DNA from: Clostridia bacterium
GTDB lineage: Bacteria > Bacillota > Clostridia > Oscillospirales > Acutalibacteraceae
Length of the DNA stretch: 64,000 nt
Assembly: GCA_017502085.1 (NCBI GenBank)
Contig: JAFVVQ010000025.1
Location: 83,551 to 147,550, forward strand
Reading direction: 5' to 3'
The notes beneath the pieces were generated by a model, which had not been told where the DNA came from, made no database searches, and saw nothing but the letters and a program-made list of their open reading frames with translations. Each line of letters begins with the position of its first letter. Position 1 is the first letter of the stretch. Shown here piece after piece: positions 54,913 through 64,000 of this stretch. Both the position numbers and the translations under genes were made by a program.

Positions 54913-55003
54913 GGAGAGATACCGAAGTGGTCATAACGGAACGGTCTTGAAAACCGTCGTACCCTTACGGGTACCGTGGGTTCGAATCCCACTCTCTCCG
55001 CCA
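54913..55003 (+). tRNA. tRNA-Ser(TGA)
   Basis: 91 nt with CCA encoded. Acceptor GGAGAGA pairs with TCTCTCC; anticodon loop CTTGAAA gives TGA, reading UCA; long variable arm (TACCCTTACGGGTA). Confidence 0.96.
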
Positions 55004-55022: not shown

Positions 55023-56747
55023 TTATATATACGTTACCATGGAGAAGTACTCAAGTTGGTGACGAGGCGCCCCTGCTAAGGGCGTAGGTCGGGTAACCGG
55101 CGCGGGAGTTCGAGTCTCCCCTTCTCCGCCATTCAATGCACACAAAAAATTGTGTGCATTGTTTTTATCCGAAGATACCACAGAACAACTGCTTTGGTCG
55201 GGAGTTTTCTGTGGTTTTTCTTTTGGGTCAAACAGGTCAGGCTCAAATCCTAAGTTGTATTCAATCCTTATTTTGTCAGGATAAACAATGACCTGATTTA
55301 CATAGAGGTCAACAAGCTTTTTTGTTGTACTCAATGACCCTTTTCTGAACAAATCCTTTGCACGGTTAAATTCGGCTCTCAATGCCTTTTCGGTTATGCC
55401 CTTGGAGCTTAAAATAAGCTCGATTTTGTCAAGTTCATATAAAACCTTTTCTTTAAGCTCCTCACGCTCTGACAGCTTATCAAAGAGTATGTCGGAGCTG
55501 TTTTTTATTAGAAGCTCTGCAATAATGTCTATCTCCTTGTTAAGCTCCGTCAATCTTTGTTCTAACCTCGTCTTTTCACTCTTGAGTCCTTTGTTGCGTT
55601 CACTCAAATACTCTTTATAGCGTTTTACTACTTGAGGTATTATTTTTGGGTTAAACACAATATCCGAAAGACGGTCTAACACATATTGCTCAATGGCATC
55701 TCTGTTGATACCTTTGTTTGTGCACTTGACCTTTGAGCACTTTTTATTGCACCTGTAGTCAACATACTTTTTGCGGGTAGCAGTTGCTTGTCTGCTGTTT
55801 CCCGTGTAAGAAGACCCACATACACCGCACTTTATTTTACCGCTTAAAAGATATGTCTCTTTGGCGGTGTTTTTTGCTCCGTTCTTCCTACGCTGTGACA
55901 ATATCTCTTGCACCATGTCAAAATCTTCCTTTGAAACAATCTGAGGCAATCCTCCCTCTATGCGTATAATCTCGCTTGGGTCTTTGTATTTATGACCGTT
56001 TCTCTTGCCGTCAATTGACTTTGAGGCGGATTTGTTGTAGATATAAACACCTGTGTATTTTTCGTTTTTCAATATGCCGTTTATTGAGGTTTTACTGAAT
56101 CCTTCACCTCTTTTGGTCTTGTAGCCGTTAATATTAAGCTTTGTTAGTATCTCACTATATCCGCAACCATTCAAGAACATTGAAAAGACAGTCCTGATTA
56201 TTTTTGCCTCTGATTCGTTCATACTCAGTTTTAGTGTAGTCTTGTCAACATCATACCCTAAAGGAGGTATACCGCCTGTGTGCAAACACTTATAAGCGTT
56301 TTCTTTTTTGCCCTTTTCAACTTCTCTTGCTAAATTCCGTGAATAGTACTCATTAAAGCCCTCTATAACAGACTCCAATATAACACTTTCAGGTGCATCA
56401 GGGTCAATATTTTCAATGACCGATTTTAAAACAATGTCATTTCTTTTTAAATACACTTTGTATAGTATGCTGTCGTTTCTGTTTCTTGCAAATCTGTCTA
56501 ATTTATGGACTAAAACAATATCAAACGCTTTTGTGTTTGAGTCTTCAATCATTCGTTGAAATTCAGGGCGATTTGCTGTTGTTGCTGACTTGCCTCGGTC
56601 TATGTATTCACCGACAATAATTAAGTTGTTTCTCTTTGCATAGTCCCTACAAGCTCTTAACTGTGCATCAATGCTCTCCTCCCTCTGCAAGTCACTTGAA
56701 TACCTCGCATAAATAACAACTCTGTTTCGGTCTTTCTGCTGTGACAA
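55023..56747 (-). CDS. large serine recombinase (574 aa) whose C-terminus reads through the tRNA
   Basis: The integrase of the element. Resolvase catalytic domain (YARYSSDLQREESIDAQL with the catalytic Ser, then DRGKSATTANRPEFQRMIED and LVHKLDRFARNR, about residues 13-85), a Recombinase domain (about 160-270; GGIPPLGYDVDK, LNGCGYSEILTKLN), a zinc ribbon (CGVCGSSYTGN and CNKKCSKVKCTNKG, about 305-350), and a coiled coil (about 375-445; KTRLEQRLTELNKEIDIIAE). The last 31 residues (ETRTPAP...) are the antisense of tRNA-Ser. Start is TTG 56747 with AGGGAG 10 nt upstream; no better start is seen. Confidence 0.9.
   Translation of the reverse strand: MSQQKDRNRVVIYARYSSDLQREESIDAQLRACRDYAKRNNLIIVGEYIDRGKSATTANRPEFQRMIEDSNTKAFDIVLVHKLDRFARNRNDSILYKVYLKRNDIVLKSVIENIDPDAPESVILESVIEGFNEYYSRNLAREVEKGKKENAYKCLHTGGIPPLGYDVDKTTLKLSMNESEAKIIRTVFSMFLNGCGYSEILTKLNINGYKTKRGEGFSKTSINGILKNEKYTGVYIYNKSASKSIDGKRNGHKYKDPSEIIRIEGGLPQIVSKEDFDMVQEILSQRRKNGAKNTAKETYLLSGKIKCGVCGSSYTGNSRQATATRKKYVDYRCNKKCSKVKCTNKGINRDAIEQYVLDRLSDIVFNPKIIPQVVKRYKEYLSERNKGLKSEKTRLEQRLTELNKEIDIIAELLIKNSSDILFDKLSEREELKEKVLYELDKIELILSSKGITEKALRAEFNRAKDLFRKGSLSTTKKLVDLYVNQVIVYPDKIRIEYNLGFEPDLFDPKEKPQKTPDQSSCSVVSSDKNNAHNFLCALNGGEGETRTPAPVTRPTPLAGAPRHQLEYFSMVTYI
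55041..55131 (+). tRNA. tRNA-Ser(GCT), integration target
   Basis: 91 nt with CCA encoded. Acceptor GGAGAAG pairs with CTTCTCC; anticodon stem CGCCC/GGGCG with loop CTGCTAA gives GCT, reading AGC/AGU; long variable arm. The last 13 nt (55119-55131) are duplicated at 60590-60602, the two ends of an integrated element; the tRNA stays intact. Confidence 0.96.
55119..55131 (+). other. left attachment core (tRNA 3' end)
   Basis: CCCTTCTCCGCCA, acceptor-stem 3' strand and CCA of tRNA-Ser(GCT); identical to 60590-60602. Confidence 0.85.
55134..55166 (+). terminator. element-encoded terminator for tRNA-Ser(GCT)
   Basis: CAATGCACAC (55134-55143) pairs perfectly with GTGTGCATTG (55152-55161), then T5. 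It lies inside the element and in the coding region of the recombinase on the other strand. Confidence 0.85.
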
Positions 56748-56956
56748 AACAAAATATCTCCCTTCTGAAATGTTTTTAAGCAGATATTCTTTAGATTTTC
56801 AATTCTGATGAATTTCACACAATCTCCAAAATTATCCGCTTTTGTAAGATATGAAATGCCCTCACAGATAGAAGTCAATGCTGTCCGTATATCCACTATA
56901 CAATCAGTAAAGGCAATTTCAATGTTGTCAAATCGACTGTCTTTATTAGCGTACAA
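56657..56956 (-). CDS. possible small gene upstream of the serine recombinase (99 aa)
   Basis: TTG 56956 is preceded by a strong AAGGAGG at 8 nt. The first 75 residues look protein-like (DNIEIAFTDCIVDIRTALTS, GDCVKFIRIENLKNI), while the last 30 overlap the recombinase start in another frame. I do not recognise it. It may be a leader gene translationally linked to the recombinase, or the ribosome binding site may belong to a shorter, uncertain product. Confidence 0.4.
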   Translation of the reverse strand: MYANKDSRFDNIEIAFTDCIVDIRTALTSICEGISYLTKADNFGDCVKFIRIENLKNICLKTFQKGDILFCHSRKTETELLFMRGIQVTCRGRRALMHS

Positions 56957-57041
56957 AATAACACCTCCTTATTCTATATTTTGCATGGATTATATTACAT
57001 CTTTTACATTTAGTCAAATACGCCTTATAGTATTATTTATA

Positions 57042-57070
57042 TTGACTGAAAGTATAGAGAATGGTATAAT
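57042..57070 (+). promoter_or_regulatory. promoter of the membrane cargo gene
   Basis: TTGACT (57042-57047), 17 nt, TATAAT (57065-57070), 27 nt before the start codon. Confidence 0.8.
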
Positions 57071-57096
57071 TAAACAAAATTTCAGGAGGGTTGAAA

Positions 57097-58425
57097 ATGA
57101 AAGATAATTTAGAGAAAATTGTTCAGCGTATCGATGAATTAAAGGAGCGTTACAAAAACAAAGAAAGCAAGCACAAGCTTTTACTCGGAATAGCAGTTTT
57201 TATATTGAGTCCTTGTGCCTTTATCCTAAAACTTAACGGCAATGACATTGTTAAGATAATATTAGCTCTAATTGTCACCCTGATTATGTTTGATATTATA
57301 CTGTTTGCTTCTCCCATTTTATTGCTGTATCATATTTGGTGCAGGTCGAGCTTAAAAACCTTCGGAAAGCTTTTTGTCACCTCTTTACTTGCCGTAATTT
57401 TTGCTGTCTGTTATGTAGGTGTAACACAGGAGACGGACACAGAAACGGAAAGTACTACCTCCTATTCAGAGGAAACAAAAGAACCTGTTACAGAGAGTAA
57501 GCACACGGAAAAACAAACGGAGCTTATAACCGAAATCACTACAAAGAAAGAATTAAACTCTGTTTATTCAAAATTGACTGATAAACAGTTTGCACTCCTT
57601 ACAGAAATGATGGCAAAATCATTTTATTCGTTTTCTCTCTCAAAAGAAGAACATAAAACAGTGGAATCTGATTCTGCTGTAATGTCTTGTTTAACTCAAA
57701 TATATTCTTACGCTTACGACAATTACTTTGAGTTAGACCCCGAATATAAAGAGGTCTTTGCAACAAAGTATGAGGTTGTTTCAAAAATATCAAACTATGA
57801 AACATTAAAAGAGAACTTTGCAATAGAGTATTATTTTGACAATAAGACTCAGAATTGGGTCTATACAATCAACTCTTACTCCCTTAATAAAAATGATGTC
57901 GTTGAATATGACGATAAATTATATATTGATGCAGAGGGATATTTAAATAAGGGCGTTATTGTTTATTGGTTAAATGACGGTGTAATGGAGGCTTCAGGCG
58001 AAATTAAAGACACTGCATATAACAAAGAGATTAACGGAACAACATACGCTTATGCAGTAAATATAGAATATTACGATGACCCCTATGCAAGCGGATGGAC
58101 TGACGGAGAAATAATTTTAAGAGTAAACAAGAATTTTTCGGGCAAACCACTCTATTATGTCAATGTTCAGGATGCTAACCGAAAGATAATAAGAGAAGAA
58201 ATTGACTTTAGCGGGTCAACAGTTTGGAAGCCTCTGAAAAGCTCAAAACCTTCAGTCGGAACAGAGGTGTACTCAGGTATAACTCATTCTAAGTCCTATG
58301 TTTTCACTATAGTTGGTATTGATATTTCAAGTGATTCTATGCTTGTCTCATATCCGAGTGGAACAACCGAGTATAAGTCATATTCGGCAATTATGAACAA
58401 TGAGTATTTATTTGTTAAACTCTGA
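57097..58425 (+). CDS. membrane protein with an extracytoplasmic domain, cargo of the element (442 aa)
   Basis: ATG 57097 follows AGGAGGG by 6 nt. A charged N-terminal helix (about 1-27) precedes three membrane helices (about 28-115: LLLGIAVFILSPCAFIL, IVKIILALIVTLIMFDIILF and LFVTSLLAVIFAVCYVGV). Then a Thr/Glu-rich linker (about 118-155) and a large domain of about 280 aa outside the cell, rich in Tyr, Asn and Asp, which I do not recognise. As the only non-recombination cargo it could be a surface, immunity or exclusion factor; no evidence decides this. Confidence 0.8.
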   Translation: MKDNLEKIVQRIDELKERYKNKESKHKLLLGIAVFILSPCAFILKLNGNDIVKIILALIVTLIMFDIILFASPILLLYHIWCRSSLKTFGKLFVTSLLAVIFAVCYVGVTQETDTETESTTSYSEETKEPVTESKHTEKQTELITEITTKKELNSVYSKLTDKQFALLTEMMAKSFYSFSLSKEEHKTVESDSAVMSCLTQIYSYAYDNYFELDPEYKEVFATKYEVVSKISNYETLKENFAIEYYFDNKTQNWVYTINSYSLNKNDVVEYDDKLYIDAEGYLNKGVIVYWLNDGVMEASGEIKDTAYNKEINGTTYAYAVNIEYYDDPYASGWTDGEIILRVNKNFSGKPLYYVNVQDANRKIIREEIDFSGSTVWKPLKSSKPSVGTEVYSGITHSKSYVFTIVGIDISSDSMLVSYPSGTTEYKSYSAIMNNEYLFVKL

Positions 58426-58499
58426 TTACTCCCGCAAACCACTCCACCACCAAAACCAAAATAATTTTTGAATGACCCCGTGTCAGGTATAACGACTAA

Positions 58500-58535
58500 A
58501 AGACAGTACAGTTTTAATGCTGTGCTGTCTTTCTG
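58500..58535 (+). terminator. terminator of the membrane cargo gene
   Basis: AAGACAGTACAG (58500-58511) pairs with CTGTGCTGTCTT (58520-58531), one wobble, then TCTGT. The stretch 58536-58769 between it and the next operator shows no gene. Confidence 0.75.
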
Positions 58536-58769
58536 TATATATGTCTCTCTATGTTTATCACTATAATGTTTATATAACACACTCTTTACTCCGCACTTTT
58601 CTCTCCTCTATGTCACCTGTGAATTTTAGCCGATACAAATTAACAACCTCGTGTATTTTAACGCTTTTACTAACAATAACCTTATTTTAAGCTCCATTTT
58701 TATCCTGTAAAATATTTGACTTGGTGCAGTCCTTTTCAGGGTGGAGGTGGTTTAAGGGTGGGGGCGTTT

Positions 58770-58819
58770 GTCAAGTATTATGAATAATAGTTGACAAACA
58801 TATCAAGTTATGATAATAT
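58770..58819 (+). promoter_or_regulatory. palindromic operator and promoter of the compact recombinase gene
   Basis: A 26-bp near-perfect palindrome (58770-58795; GTCAA-N-TATTAT-NN-ATAATA-N-TTGAC) overlaps the -35 element TTGACA (58791-58796); 17 nt later is TAATAT (58814-58819). The gene is thus probably under repression, likely by the XRE protein of the element. Confidence 0.75.
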
Positions 58820-58844
58820 ATGTGTGTATGCAGGAGGTAATACT

Positions 58845-59639
58845 ATGGAAAAAGTATTCGGTTATGTTCGTGTAAGCACAGAGACTCAAGCTTCAGACGG
58901 TTACGGCATTCAAACTCAAAAGACAGCAATAAAGGACTATTGCAAAGAGAACAATCTTGAGTTGGTTAATATATTTGTTGACAGAGGCATTTCAGGCACA
59001 GTTATAGACAGAGACGGTCTTACAGAATTGCTCTCCTCTTTTAACGGCATCTGCAAAGTGGTTGTGCTGAACACAAGCAGACTTTGGAGGTCTGACACTG
59101 CAAAGGTCTTAATACAAAAGGCTATAAAAAGTGCTAATGCAGATGTTATCAGCATAGAGCAAAAAAACTACTCCATATATCACAAAGACCCTAACGACTT
59201 TTTAATCAACAACATGATTGAGCTTTTAGACCAATACGAAAGACTCAGCATTAACTTAAAGCTTGCTAAAGGCAGAAAGACTAAAGCAAAGTCTGGAGAA
59301 AAAGCCTGCGGTGTTGCTCCTCTTGGTTACAGGTGGAACTCTGATGCCGAAATTGAAGTTGACCCCGAAACAGCTTGTGATGTCAAGCACATATACAAGA
59401 AGTATTTGGAACTCGGCAGTATAGGCAAGCTGAAGGACTATCTTGACCAAAACGGATATACAACTAAAAGAGGCAATATGTACTCTAAACAGGCATTGTT
59501 AAATATCCTTACAAATGACTTTTACAAAGGTTATGTTACACACGGCTCTGTTCACATTAAAGGCAATCATAAAGCTATTATTTCCCCGATTTTGTTCAAA
59601 CAGGTTGAGTCAAAATTGAGAGCAAACAAAAAGTACTGA
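58845..59639 (+). CDS. compact serine recombinase without zinc ribbon (264 aa)
   Basis: ATG 58845 follows AGGAGG by 8 nt. Resolvase domain (GYVRVSTETQASDGYGIQ with catalytic Ser, DRGISGTVIDRDGL, VLNTSRLWRS; residues about 5-85) and a shortened Recombinase domain (GVAPLGYRWNSDAEIEVDPE, YTTKRGNMYSKQALLNILTN; about 165-250), ending at RANKKY. It lacks the zinc ribbon and coiled coil of large integrases, so it may act as a resolvase, partner or excision helper. Confidence 0.85.
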   Translation: MEKVFGYVRVSTETQASDGYGIQTQKTAIKDYCKENNLELVNIFVDRGISGTVIDRDGLTELLSSFNGICKVVVLNTSRLWRSDTAKVLIQKAIKSANADVISIEQKNYSIYHKDPNDFLINNMIELLDQYERLSINLKLAKGRKTKAKSGEKACGVAPLGYRWNSDAEIEVDPETACDVKHIYKKYLELGSIGKLKDYLDQNGYTTKRGNMYSKQALLNILTNDFYKGYVTHGSVHIKGNHKAIISPILFKQVESKLRANKKY

Positions 59640-59697
59640 CAGTCAGCACAAACACTACCAACAGCATATTTTATTTTACAAAACAATTCCTTATAGT

Positions 59698-59711
59698 ATA
59701 GTTATAACTAT
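59698..59711. promoter_or_regulatory. palindrome upstream of the XRE gene
   Basis: The 14-nt palindrome ATAGTTATAACTAT just before the ribosome binding site is a likely operator. Its half ATAGTTAT also occurs in the operator at 1050-1088. Confidence 0.5.
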
Positions 59712-59728
59712 CAAGGAGTTGTTTTTTT

Positions 59729-60169
59729 GTGACTTCAAATAAAAAAGGTAATTCAGGACAGGTCAAATCTCAAGTGCGTGGGAGACCTGCGTGCAGTCCT
59801 GTTCAAAAATACGCTTACACCGAAAACAGTATGCACTGTTATAATGACCCCGATATGTCTTTTGTCGGAAAAAGGCTCAGGGAAGAACGCAACCGTCTAC
59901 ACTATACTCAAGAGGAAGTTGGGGAAATGATAGGTGTTACTCCTGCGTATATAGGACACATGGAAAGAGGAGAAAGAGGCTTTTCTATTGAAACTCTTGT
60001 TAAGCTCTGTAACTGTTATAAGGTCACTATTGACTATCTCTTTAAGGATGTCATAAAGCAGGACAAAAACAGCATAACGGAACAAATCAAGCTCTTGTTA
60101 AGAGATAAAGATGAGGAACAGCAAAAGGCTATTCTTGACATTATGAAAGCTGTTATAAGAAACATATAA
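59729..60169 (+). CDS. XRE-family regulator with a disordered N-terminal extension (146 aa)
   Basis: GTG 59729 follows AAGGAG by 10 nt. The HTH lies at about residues 45-105 (FVGKRLREERNRLHYTQEEV, GEMIGVTPAYIGHMERGERG). The first 43 residues are polar and low in structure and may be disordered. The C-terminal helix (QIKLLLRDKDEEQQKAILDI) is typical of dimeric regulators of mobile elements. Likely represses the recombinase genes. Confidence 0.85.
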   Translation: MTSNKKGNSGQVKSQVRGRPACSPVQKYAYTENSMHCYNDPDMSFVGKRLREERNRLHYTQEEVGEMIGVTPAYIGHMERGERGFSIETLVKLCNCYKVTIDYLFKDVIKQDKNSITEQIKLLLRDKDEEQQKAILDIMKAVIRNI

Positions 60170-60171
60170 AA

Positions 60172-60213
60172 ATAGCGTTATGCTTGTGGTTGAGCATAAC
60201 GCTATCTCTTTTT
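60172..60213 (+). terminator. terminator of the XRE gene
   Basis: ATAGCGTTATGCT (60172-60184) pairs perfectly with AGCATAACGCTAT (60193-60205), then CTCTTTTT. It abuts the end of the convergent 68-aa gene. Confidence 0.9.
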
Positions 60214-60418
60214 ACAGTCTGTGTCTTCGTGGAGCTAAAAGCTTTACTTCTCTTGTATTGGGATTATAATAATACCCGTGACTTTTGAAGTCGTTTAACA
60301 CCGATATGTAAGGTAAATTCAATTTTCGGGCAAAAAGCTCTAAACTCATCCGTGTTTTGTTATAATACTTCGCTTTGTCTTCAGGGAGCTTATCAAGCCA
60401 CACATCAACAGATACCAT
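60212..60418 (-). CDS. small protein of the element (68 aa)
   Basis: ATG 60418 follows GAGGTGAT. The product (MVSVDVWLDKLPEDKAKYYN..., a Lys/Arg-rich end LLAPRRHRL) is basic and may bind DNA; LELFARKLNLPYISVLNDFK is a helical pair. Position next to the right attachment core fits an excisionase-like factor, but nothing proves it. Confidence 0.6.
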   Translation of the reverse strand: MVSVDVWLDKLPEDKAKYYNKTRMSLELFARKLNLPYISVLNDFKSHGYYYNPNTREVKLLAPRRHRL

Positions 60419-60589
60419 ACAATCACCTCATATACTATATATTATGTATATTATATCATATAACCACAATTTGTGTCAATATATATGGGTTAAGATTCTT
60501 TTTTATACATATCCGAGTATAGTCTGTCTGTATACTATTTTAATAAAAGGGTTGTCTATCTCTATGTTTGTGTGCTTTATAGGTGTTGT

Positions 60590-60602
60590 CCCTTCTCCGC
60601 CA
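60590..60602 (+). other. right attachment core
   Basis: CCCTTCTCCGCCA, identical to the tRNA-Ser(GCT) 3' end at 55119-55131; it is followed by a terminator hairpin belonging to the chromosome. Confidence 0.85.
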
Positions 60603-60608
60603 AAGAAA

Positions 60609-60928
60609 AACAGTCCGCAAAAGCGGGCTGTTTTTCTTTGGGAGAAACGAAGCCTGTGCCGGTAACCGGCGTGGGGCGAACCGCCGAAGCGCCGCCTGTG
60701 GCGGATGAAGCAAGGCGGTGAGGTGAAGAAACAAGGAGCATAGCGCCCGCTCCAAGGGCGATAGGCGACTATGTTTCTGATGGGCCCGGCAGAAACCCTC
60801 GGAAGCGGCGGGGTTAGTCTGATGAGCAAACAGTCCGCAAAAGCGGGCTGTTTTTTCTTTGGGAGAAACGTCCTGTGTCTTGCAGAAAGTTCGGTCTGAT
60901 GAGCAAAAGCGGGCTGTTTTTTGTTACG
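60609..60928. repeat. direct repeats of a terminator-type hairpin beyond attR
   Basis: A 41-42-bp unit (AACAGTCCGCAAAAGCGGGC... to GGGAGAAACG) occurs at 60609-60649 and 60829-60870, and a shortened third copy (GCAAAAGCGGGCTGTTTTTT) at about 60903-60922. Each copy is a hairpin (CAG-CCGC/GCGG-CTG) with a T run, that is, a terminator. TCTGATGAGCAAA precedes copies 2 and 3. Confidence 0.85.
60650..60828. ncRNA. GC-rich, structured candidate noncoding RNA or repeat
   Basis: The segment is clearly richer in G+C than its surroundings and lies between two copies of the terminator repeat. It can form several stems: GCCGG/CCGGC (60658-60662/60666-60670), CCGCC/GGCGG (60692-60696/60700-60704), and AGAAACA/TGTTTCT (60727-60733/60772-60778) that encloses GGAGC/GCTCC (60735-60739/60749-60753). 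I see no ribosome binding site for the open frames here. It may be an RNA gene or a dispersed repeat. Confidence 0.4.
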
Positions 60929-62675: not shown

Positions 62676-62696
62676 TTCATAATGTATAAAATATAA

Positions 62697-62734
62697 CCCT
62701 CTTGCGGAAAAATAACCGCAGGAGGGATTTTTTT
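62697..62734 (+). terminator. terminator hairpin holding the ribosome binding site of the hydrolase gene
   Basis: CCCTCTTGCGG (62697-62707) pairs with CCGCAGGAGGG (62716-62726), one wobble, followed by T7 (62728-62734). The AGGAGGG in the 3' arm is the ribosome binding site for TTG 62733. Reading through and translation of the hydrolase must therefore melt the hairpin. Confidence 0.75.
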
Positions 62735-63698
62735 GTGTACTGCAATAACTTTTGATGCGGGGAATTTTTATTTCGGGAGAAATCTTGATTTATCATATCA
62801 CTATGACGAAGCGGTGACCGTTACGCCCGGAAATTTTCCGTTCCGATTCCGCAACGGGGAAGTGTATGAGAATCACTTTGCGGTTATCGGGATCGCAACC
62901 GTTGTTGAGGGGTATCCGCTTTATTATGATGCCACCAACGAAAAGGGTCTGAGTATTGCAGGTCTGAATTTTCCTGATAATGCGGTTTATAATCCCGAAT
63001 CAGAGTCTGCGGTCAATGTCGCACCGTTTGAACTGATTCCGTATATACTCGGCAAATGTTCAACAGCCGACGAAGCGTATTCTGAAATCAAAAAGCTGAA
63101 TCTGTGGGATATTCCGTTCAGCAATAATTATCCGCTGACACCACTCCATTGGATTGTATCCGATAAAAAACGTTGCTTCACTGTCGAGCCGACGGCAGAC
63201 GGACTGAAGCTTTATGCCAATCCCGTCGGAGTGCTCACCAATAATCCGCCGTTTGATTATCATATGCACAACCTGGCCAATTATCTGAATCTCTCTGTAG
63301 ACGAGCCCGCCGATAATCCGAAAAATCATACAATAAAAAGGTATTCTCTCGGTCTGGGCGCATACGGTTTGCCGGGAGATTTGTCGTCCGCTTCAAGATT
63401 CGTCAGAGCAACGTTTGCGAAAATTCATTCCGAATGCAGTGATGACGAATATGAAAACGTAAATCAGTTTTTTCATATTCTCGGGTTTACAGAGCAGGTG
63501 AAGGGTCTTTGCAGACTTTCTGACGGCAAATCAAATTACACCGTTTACTCATCCTGCTGCAATACCGACAGAGGAATATACTATTATATAACTTATGATG
63601 ACAGAAAGATAAGGTGTGTTGATATGAAAAAAGAGGACCTGAACAGCGAAAAAATTGCGGTGTATCCGTTGAAAATGGAAAAAAGATTTTTTGAATAA
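62733..63698 (+). CDS. choloylglycine hydrolase family protein, likely bile salt hydrolase (321 aa)
   Basis: An Ntn hydrolase that cleaves the amide bond of glycine- or taurine-conjugated bile salts (or penicillin V). The TTG start at 62733 gives M-C-T-A-I; Cys2 is the nucleophile after Met removal. Other catalytic residues are in GRNLDLSY (Arg, Asp), GLNFPDNAVY (Asn), VLTNNPPFDYH (Asn) and SASRFVRA (Arg). Length (317-338) and motifs fit BSH; PVA-type activity is not excluded. This gene points to a bile-exposed gut host. Translation should depend on opening the hairpin at 62697. Confidence 0.93.
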   Translation: MCTAITFDAGNFYFGRNLDLSYHYDEAVTVTPGNFPFRFRNGEVYENHFAVIGIATVVEGYPLYYDATNEKGLSIAGLNFPDNAVYNPESESAVNVAPFELIPYILGKCSTADEAYSEIKKLNLWDIPFSNNYPLTPLHWIVSDKKRCFTVEPTADGLKLYANPVGVLTNNPPFDYHMHNLANYLNLSVDEPADNPKNHTIKRYSLGLGAYGLPGDLSSASRFVRATFAKIHSECSDDEYENVNQFFHILGFTEQVKGLCRLSDGKSNYTVYSSCCNTDRGIYYYITYDDRKIRCVDMKKEDLNSEKIAVYPLKMEKRFFE

Positions 63699-63730
63699 AA
63701 CTAAAAAACGTAAAAATATAATCTTTTTTA

Positions 63731-63753
63731 AAAACTTTTCAAAAAAGTTTTTT
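63731..63753 (+). terminator. weak A+T-rich terminator of the hydrolase gene
   Basis: AAAACTTTT (63731-63739) pairs with AAAAGTTTT (63743-63751), with T run. Confidence 0.5.
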
Positions 63754-63912
63754 ATGACGATTTTGTCACACAGAAACACTTATATGAGCATTATATATAA
63801 AAGATGAATAGAATAATCATGGCTGATAAAAGGTTTTTGTGCAACATTGTGAAAACATCGCGAAACACACGGAGGAGTTGAGAATAGGGGCAAAAAATAT
63901 TGAAAAAAGGTG

Positions 63913-63941
63913 TTGACAAATGGGAATGAATTTGGTAATAT
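63913..63941 (+). promoter_or_regulatory. strong promoter of a downstream rRNA operon (probable)
   Basis: TTGACA (63913-63918), 17 nt, TAATAT (63936-63941), just before a leader ending ACCTTGAAAATTAAACAACG at 63976-63995, which is characteristic of sequences just before 16S rRNA genes in Firmicutes. The 16S gene itself is beyond the window. Confidence 0.65.
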
Positions 63942-64000
63942 ATCGGAGCGCTCTGAAATACAGCAGCGCACCGCACCTTGAAAATTAAACAACGAGAAGA

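Follow-up and report, generated by a model that had tools for sequence, protein, structure and literature searches.

Serine integrases are widely used in genome engineering, and the 3' ends of tRNA and transfer-messenger RNA (tmRNA) genes are the classic niche of tyrosine integrases. We analysed a 64,000-nucleotide stretch of a Clostridia bacterium of the family Acutalibacteraceae (assembly GCA_017502085.1, contig JAFVVQ010000025.1, forward-strand positions 83,551 to 147,550; hereafter the window), in which a small element with a large serine integrase occupies the 3' end of the tRNA-Ser(GCT) gene. Described systems of related design are cited here for the parts of each source that were consulted. 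In the DsiB/DsiA islands of Dehalococcoides, a large serine integrase always overlaps the left attachment site, attL, at the tmRNA gene ssrA, with its stop codon only outside the island, and the same work asks whether a DsiB-type integrase functions fully only from the circle (PMC3146451). In the streptococcal integrative and conjugative elements (ICEs) at rumA, a single serine integrase has its C-terminus exchanged on integration (PMC4701971). Serine recombinases in tRNA genes are represented by the actinomycete ICEs (AICEs) of Mycobacterium, at tRNA-Leu, and by phage phiRSM1, at tRNA-Ser (PMC3218068).

The element in the window resembles the DsiB/DsiA islands in having a large integrase at an RNA-gene end, an integrase gene that overlaps attL, a repeat of the RNA 3' end and a second, smaller serine recombinase, a likeness drawn from the published description. 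It differs in its target, tRNA-Ser(GCT) as opposed to tmRNA (ssrA); in the position of integration, probably about 11 nt from the 3' end here and placed in the T-loop by the authors there; in having no RecF, ParB or Mom family; and in carrying its short recombinase apart from the integrase. As in the rumA ICEs, the attachment site lies inside the integrase gene and the C-terminus is predicted to be exchanged; however, the target of those ICEs is a protein gene, rumA, whereas here it is a tRNA, and the element is small and has no conjugation family. With the Mycobacterium AICEs and phiRSM1, which were compared by description, the element shares a serine recombinase at a tRNA gene, although the hosts and element types are others. 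With prophage Mx8 (as reported in PMC4701971) it shares an attP, the attachment site of the circular form, that lies within the integrase gene and a tail that is replaced; the Mx8 enzyme, by contrast, is a tyrosine recombinase. We consider it highly probable that the window holds a small integrative element that is mobilised by the large serine integrase encoded at its left end, with integration rebuilding the tRNA end and swapping the integrase tail. Its most interesting feature is the overlap of the integrase with its own attachment site, which a preliminary description of this DNA had missed. In the literature searched, which left most subscription journals outside, we found no description of a group-wide overlap in one phase beyond the precedents named above.

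The integrase frame and the ends of the element

The large serine integrase gene (55023–56747, minus strand; open reading frame (ORF) list and domain search) has no stop codon before attL. Its frame passes attL, crosses the tRNA gene in antisense and ends at 55023, in the spacer before tRNA-Ser(GCT), such that the integrase is present where the preliminary description had placed it, but is not contained within the element. The tail reads GGEG-TTPIKHTNIEIDNPFIKIVYRQTILGYV in the circular form and GGEG-ETRTPAPVTRP..., derived from the antisense tRNA, in the chromosome. Because attP spans the 3' end of the integrase gene, strand exchange would replace the C-terminal tail; as a fact of coding, this swap is shown by the sequence.

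The ends of the element are marked by a 13-bp repeat, CCCTTCTCCGCCA, at 55119–55131 (attL) and 60590–60602 (attR), both read on the plus strand. As described previously, the repeat brackets 5,471 bp (5.47 kb); there is no third copy in the window at one mismatch or fewer, and 100 shuffled sequences gave a mean of 0.05 matches and in no case two, which led us to reject a chance repeat. The attL copy is the 3' end of the target gene, tRNA-Ser(GCT) (55041–55131, plus strand; tRNA prediction and Rfam tRNA), whose neighbour is tRNA-Ser(TGA) (54913–55003, plus strand; tRNA prediction and Rfam). This tRNA pair recurs in the same-genus loci read, and the tRNA region of the window has one match in its own genome. 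A terminator-like hairpin within the left end (55134–55161, plus strand) would be given to tRNA-Ser(GCT) by the element, and the host flank with the old tRNA hairpin lies beyond attR (60603–60640, plus strand), where it matches the empty site in genome G008 from the first base past the CCA; both agree with the earlier proposal that the element supplies a new terminator while the old one survives beyond attR. The arrangement is that of the Islander signature, with an intact tRNA, a displaced tRNA fragment and an integrase in between; empty sites are also known. Positions 60603–60925 hold copies of the ACAGTCCGCAAAAGCGGGCTGT hairpin, two full and one partial, and positions ~60658–60784 are a dispersed repeat that is present elsewhere in same-genus genomes.

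Joining the two ends, as in the circular form, produces an inverted repeat, TTTGTGTGC...GCACACAAA, centred at 55121/60592. Its arms were identified from the sequence at 60567–60575 (TTTGTGTGC, plus strand) and, within the integrase gene, at 55138–55146 (GCACACAAA, plus strand). The axis lies at index 10 from the tRNA 3' end (0-based), with 12 of 14 positions paired (p 0.010, 200 shuffles), and the arms lie 17–25 bp from the centre, which fits the geometry of large serine integrases (about 16–25 bp); in the LI integrase–attP complex, the ZD (zinc-ribbon domain) motif lies at 16–24 (PMC3783163, in the part consulted). The position of this centre suggests that crossover probably takes place at the inner edge of the repeat, about 11 nt in from the 3' end of the tRNA (~55120–55121), and most of the 13-bp repeat is a tRNA end brought along by the element to restore the gene. 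The repeat had been called a core in the preliminary description; it is not a symmetric one, the inverted repeat of attP being centred on its third base. We infer the exact crossover and a 2-bp overlap, and the ends of identity blocks are consistent with recombination at such an overlap.

Three related integrases, from viral contigs, were found in both states. L176 (attP) and L180 (attL) share 98% DNA identity over 2.9 kb and part at the core end; the other pairs are L215/L217 (96% DNA identity) and L188/L192 (94%). All three pairs part 11–13 nt inside the RNA end, and L180, L192 and L217 are tmRNA 3' ends (Rfam). In the mechanism that we propose, the integrase, which is presumed to be active, would bind an attP whose arms stand on either side of a copy of the final 11–13 nt of tRNA-Ser, and would cut at a 2-bp overlap near the boundary of acceptor and T-stem. 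The circle would then be joined to the chromosome, with the element's copy rebuilding the tRNA 3' end and the new terminator following it, and the same strand exchange would replace the C-terminal tail of the integrase. The boundaries, the empty sites, the tail swap as coding and the recurrence of the arrangement in many relatives are the parts of this proposal that appear in the DNA itself.

We compared the locus with empty sites by searching for the tRNA region in 40 genomes (its own and 39 others). Thirty-seven matched, and from these we took 20 loci, including that of the window itself. Two of the remaining 19 end at the tRNA and L020 was left out; 16 same-genus sites were compared. The element sequence had no match at any of the 16 (BLAST, E 1e-3; also in the 200 bp past the CCA). 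The right flank of the window was matched above every shuffle at six of them (G002, G008, G017, G022, G007 and G021), and in G002 (182 bp) and G008 (33 bp) the match starts at the first base past the CCA, which is the empty-site structure predicted by the preliminary description. The other ten sites have different DNA past the CCA, including G006, which has the nearest tRNA region (97%). Further to the right, window positions 62679–64000 begin 1.4 kb past the CCA in G006 (71% over 1,336 bp), and positions 63860–63995 sit 0.4 kb past the CCA in G008 (82% over 137 bp), indicating that the tRNA and this stretch are neighbours where the element is absent; we take these matches as empty-site evidence independent of the dispersed repeat and of the hairpin copies. 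The assignment of the element ends, and of its insertion in the tRNA-Ser(GCT) 3' end, is backed by both the repeat and the empty sites. The cargo is patchy: the short recombinase was found in its own genome and in none of the 149 other family genomes at E 1e-35 (150 searched), and the 444-aa membrane protein in two of the 149, as fragment matches only.

RNA-gene ends as common targets in the integrase group

Integration by serine integrases at tRNA ends has been described as seldom (Islander 2015) and as rare for tRNA genes (Ghinet 2011; PMC3218068), in each case in the part of the source consulted; the word tRNA is absent from the searched text of PMC10083194, and the consulted parts of PMC12424338 and PMC12884075 quote no number for tRNA genes occupied by serine integrases. 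The preliminary description had likewise stressed the rarity of the target. That statement agrees with the published surveys but not with the group to which this integrase belongs, in which RNA 3' ends are frequent. A profile scan of genome contigs gave at least 565 relatives, of which the best 80 were analysed, and in 26 of these the 3' end of a convergent tmRNA or tRNA gene lies no more than 300 bp from where the integrase ends. Points placed at random in these loci gave an expectation of 1.16, or 0.32 once the target genes were excluded. All of the best 80 are free of RNA genes for 450 bp upstream and of same-strand RNA genes for 450 bp downstream. RNA-end targeting is common in the group, but not universal, and the argument from rarity needs reversing: RNA ends are a regular target. 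The 26 RNA-end relatives are Bacillota, as classed by hand from organism names. Across all sets the targets are tmRNA and tRNA-Ser, -Ala, -Pro, -Gln, -Leu, -Glu, -Gly and -Val, and Rfam identifies a tmRNA 3' end at the end of all 14 cut viral loci tested (E <1e-12); 12 exceed the gathering score.

Target labels changed 37 times on an integrase tree of 167 rows, compared with a mean of 46.8 after shuffling, and none of 500 shuffles was as low. The label "none" on this tree also takes in circle-only relatives, cut contigs and pattern misses (L186, for example, is a tmRNA end), such that the origin of RNA targeting is unreadable from it. In the window's own genome there are seven more relatives of the integrase (L311–L317; 26–50% identity), and a contig of Clostridium muellerianum carries two related large serine integrases ~17 kb apart (L092 and L121).

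The overlap with the RNA gene recurs in many members of the group. The integrase frame enters the RNA gene in phase 2 in 38 of the 47 loci with an ARAGORN gene. By overlapping clusters, phase 2 holds in 7/9 at 50% identity, 18/23 at 60% and 25/30 at 70%, with the qualification that the clusters share descent and p-values computed on them are too small. With two copies removed (L113 and L123), 41 of 45 loci keep the frame open into the RNA gene, against a shuffle-based expectation of 24.1; among the 19 loci with 60 nt or more between integrase and RNA, 15 do so, compared with 1.8 expected. In L068, L077, L129 and L202 the integrase stops before the RNA. The attP axis lies at 10–11 in 23 of 28 group members (L215 after an index shift of 2), in a set that includes some near copies and leaves out L228, whose core was not located; all 15 attP with p <0.05 have this axis. 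A pattern search for attR gave a pair for L104. The attR of L126 lies in DNA further upstream, and there was none in the stretches read for L134 and L068. Near the integrase end of L182 there are two tandem copies of the RNA-end core with one integrase, perhaps a double attachment site, and two different integrases on one viral contig (L204 and L231) have an identical attP right half. Taken together, the element is a tRNA-Ser variant of a serine-integrase group that has RNA-gene ends as a regular target and a self-re-coded tail.

Other genes of the element and the short recombinase

The gene content reported in the preliminary description (two serine recombinases, an XRE regulator, a membrane protein and two small ORFs) matches our domain search. 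The integrase combines the Resolvase, Recombinase and zinc-ribbon domains of large serine integrases in one protein of ~500 aa; its closest relative in viral contigs is 49% identical, and that in a Moorella phage record 43%. A small ORF (56657–56956, minus strand) overlaps the integrase start and has no family in Pfam, NCBIfam or PHROGs, and neither does a 444-aa protein (57091–58425, plus strand) with a hydrophobic N-terminal part, as judged by eye. These are followed by a short serine recombinase that has the Resolvase and Recombinase domains but lacks a zinc ribbon (58845–59639, plus strand), an XRE-type (helix-turn-helix) regulator (59729–60169, plus strand) and a 68-aa ORF without a family (60212–60418, minus strand).

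Relaxase and conjugation families were absent from the six element ORFs (Pfam, NCBIfam and PHROGs); an origin of transfer was not searched for. Phage structural genes were likewise absent from the six ORFs, for which PHROGs gives integrase, invertase, transposase and regulator or unknown families only. We therefore rejected a phage identity, although the integrase may be akin to phage integrases. Membership of the Ccr recombinases of staphylococcal cassette chromosome (SCC) elements is not supported by the NCBIfam Ccr cut-offs, the best score being 181 bits for CcrB against a cut-off of 900. Tyrosine-type integration was also rejected, since the scanned proteins include no tyrosine integrase family and the attP geometry is of the serine type.

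The short recombinase, the XRE regulator and the 68-aa ORF recur together in genome G453, with 64%, 42% and 57% identity, respectively, to their counterparts in the window; hence they look like a portable unit. A directionality-factor role for the 68-aa protein would be a guess; no family supports this. The G453 copy (L318, contig C8, positions 1–1682), in another family of the order, is followed by a possible attR (TGCCCCTGCCA plus hairpin) directly before tRNA-Ser(GGA). No partner tRNA was found for this candidate attR, whose other match falls within a protein-coding gene. In a 3,964-bp circular Bacillus subtilis record (L324; NZ_CP089153.1, 1–3964) there is a short serine recombinase at 57% identity, together with a MerR regulator and no annotated replication gene; this record is perhaps an excised element.

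Alternative explanations and the role of the tail

Several observations weigh against a mobile element of this group. Part of the matching right flank (~60658–60784) is dispersed repeat, which also occurs in L062, at a distance of 6 kb, and in inverted orientation in L066, and the hairpin past the CCA has more copies within the window. The circle junction was not found in viral contigs; the mobility suggested by the preliminary description has the empty sites and patchy cargo in its favour and this absence against it. Five of the 28 attP have another best axis (L114, L218, L233, L239 and L104), and 54 of the best 80 relatives have no RNA gene within 300 bp. L083, the highest-identity relative among the best listed, has none within 1 kb; L068, near on the tree, adjoins tRNA-Ser(GCT), but its integrase stops 115 nt short and there is no attR in 20 kb upstream. 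Were these simply fixed chromosomal genes flanked by a chance repeat of 13 bp, no circle would be expected, as was the case in viral contigs; we nevertheless give this explanation almost no credence, since it is contradicted by the empty sites, the repeat statistics and the symmetry of attP. It is also improbable that the short recombinase (58845–59639) is the integrase or its obligate partner. A role of this kind was proposed for DsiA with DsiB (PMC3146451, in the part consulted), and the catalytic and Recombinase domains are present; however, the protein has no zinc ribbon and lies at the opposite end of the element, and its module is also present in G453, in which no relative of the large integrase exceeds 30% identity, although that genome is only 64% complete. 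Moreover, among loci L083–L244, a separate relative of the short recombinase stands beside none of the RNA-labelled loci and beside 17 others, in the flanks at hand, which led us to reject it as a general partner.

Two readings of the tail concern one detail within the explanation that we favour, an element moved by its large integrase, and how probable each is does not compete with the standing of that explanation. Any effect of the tail we can only infer, and regulation of recombination by the swap is a guess. Tentatively, the group may thread its attachment site, mostly in one frame, through its own gene such that each integration re-codes the enzyme, a self-acting directionality switch without a regulator. 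The circular tail would then be integration-competent, and the tail from antisense RNA would weaken or redirect the integrase. We regard such a built-in switch as possible but rather doubtful. It would account for frames that stay open to the core over long extensions, mostly in one phase, and a similar swap is reported to leave the integrase of Mx8 with lower activity (PMC4701971, in the part consulted). In the attP form, the frame continues at least 42 nt past the core in 24 of 24 cases, compared with 18 of 48 for the other frames, but this set was chosen by hand among ORFs extending past the core, with four near copies removed. By contrast, the group profile meets the A118 integrase to residue 493 of 522, ending just before the core and near the chain end, suggesting that the tail may lie outside the fold; residues common to the circular tails are in part attP arms and palindrome read as codons; and the integrated tails vary with the target. 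The same end of the fold before the core, and the same contribution of the palindrome to the tail, are consistent with compact packing only, in which attP lies directly against the integrase 3' end and the nature of the tail is immaterial, as are the four loci that stop before the RNA. We lean slightly towards this second reading, although neutral tails should often stop or lose phase, and the frame is open in far more of the 45 loci than shuffles predict.

We conclude that serine integrases include a natural group that often uses tRNA and tmRNA 3' ends, and for which the attP axes suggest a sequence rule, with crossover probably about 11 nt from the RNA 3' end. The idea raised for Dehalococcoides in 2011, that such an integrase may function fully only when encoded by the circle, is thereby made testable. 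In practical terms, integrases taken from integrated copies bear an RNA-derived tail, unlike the tail encoded by the free element.

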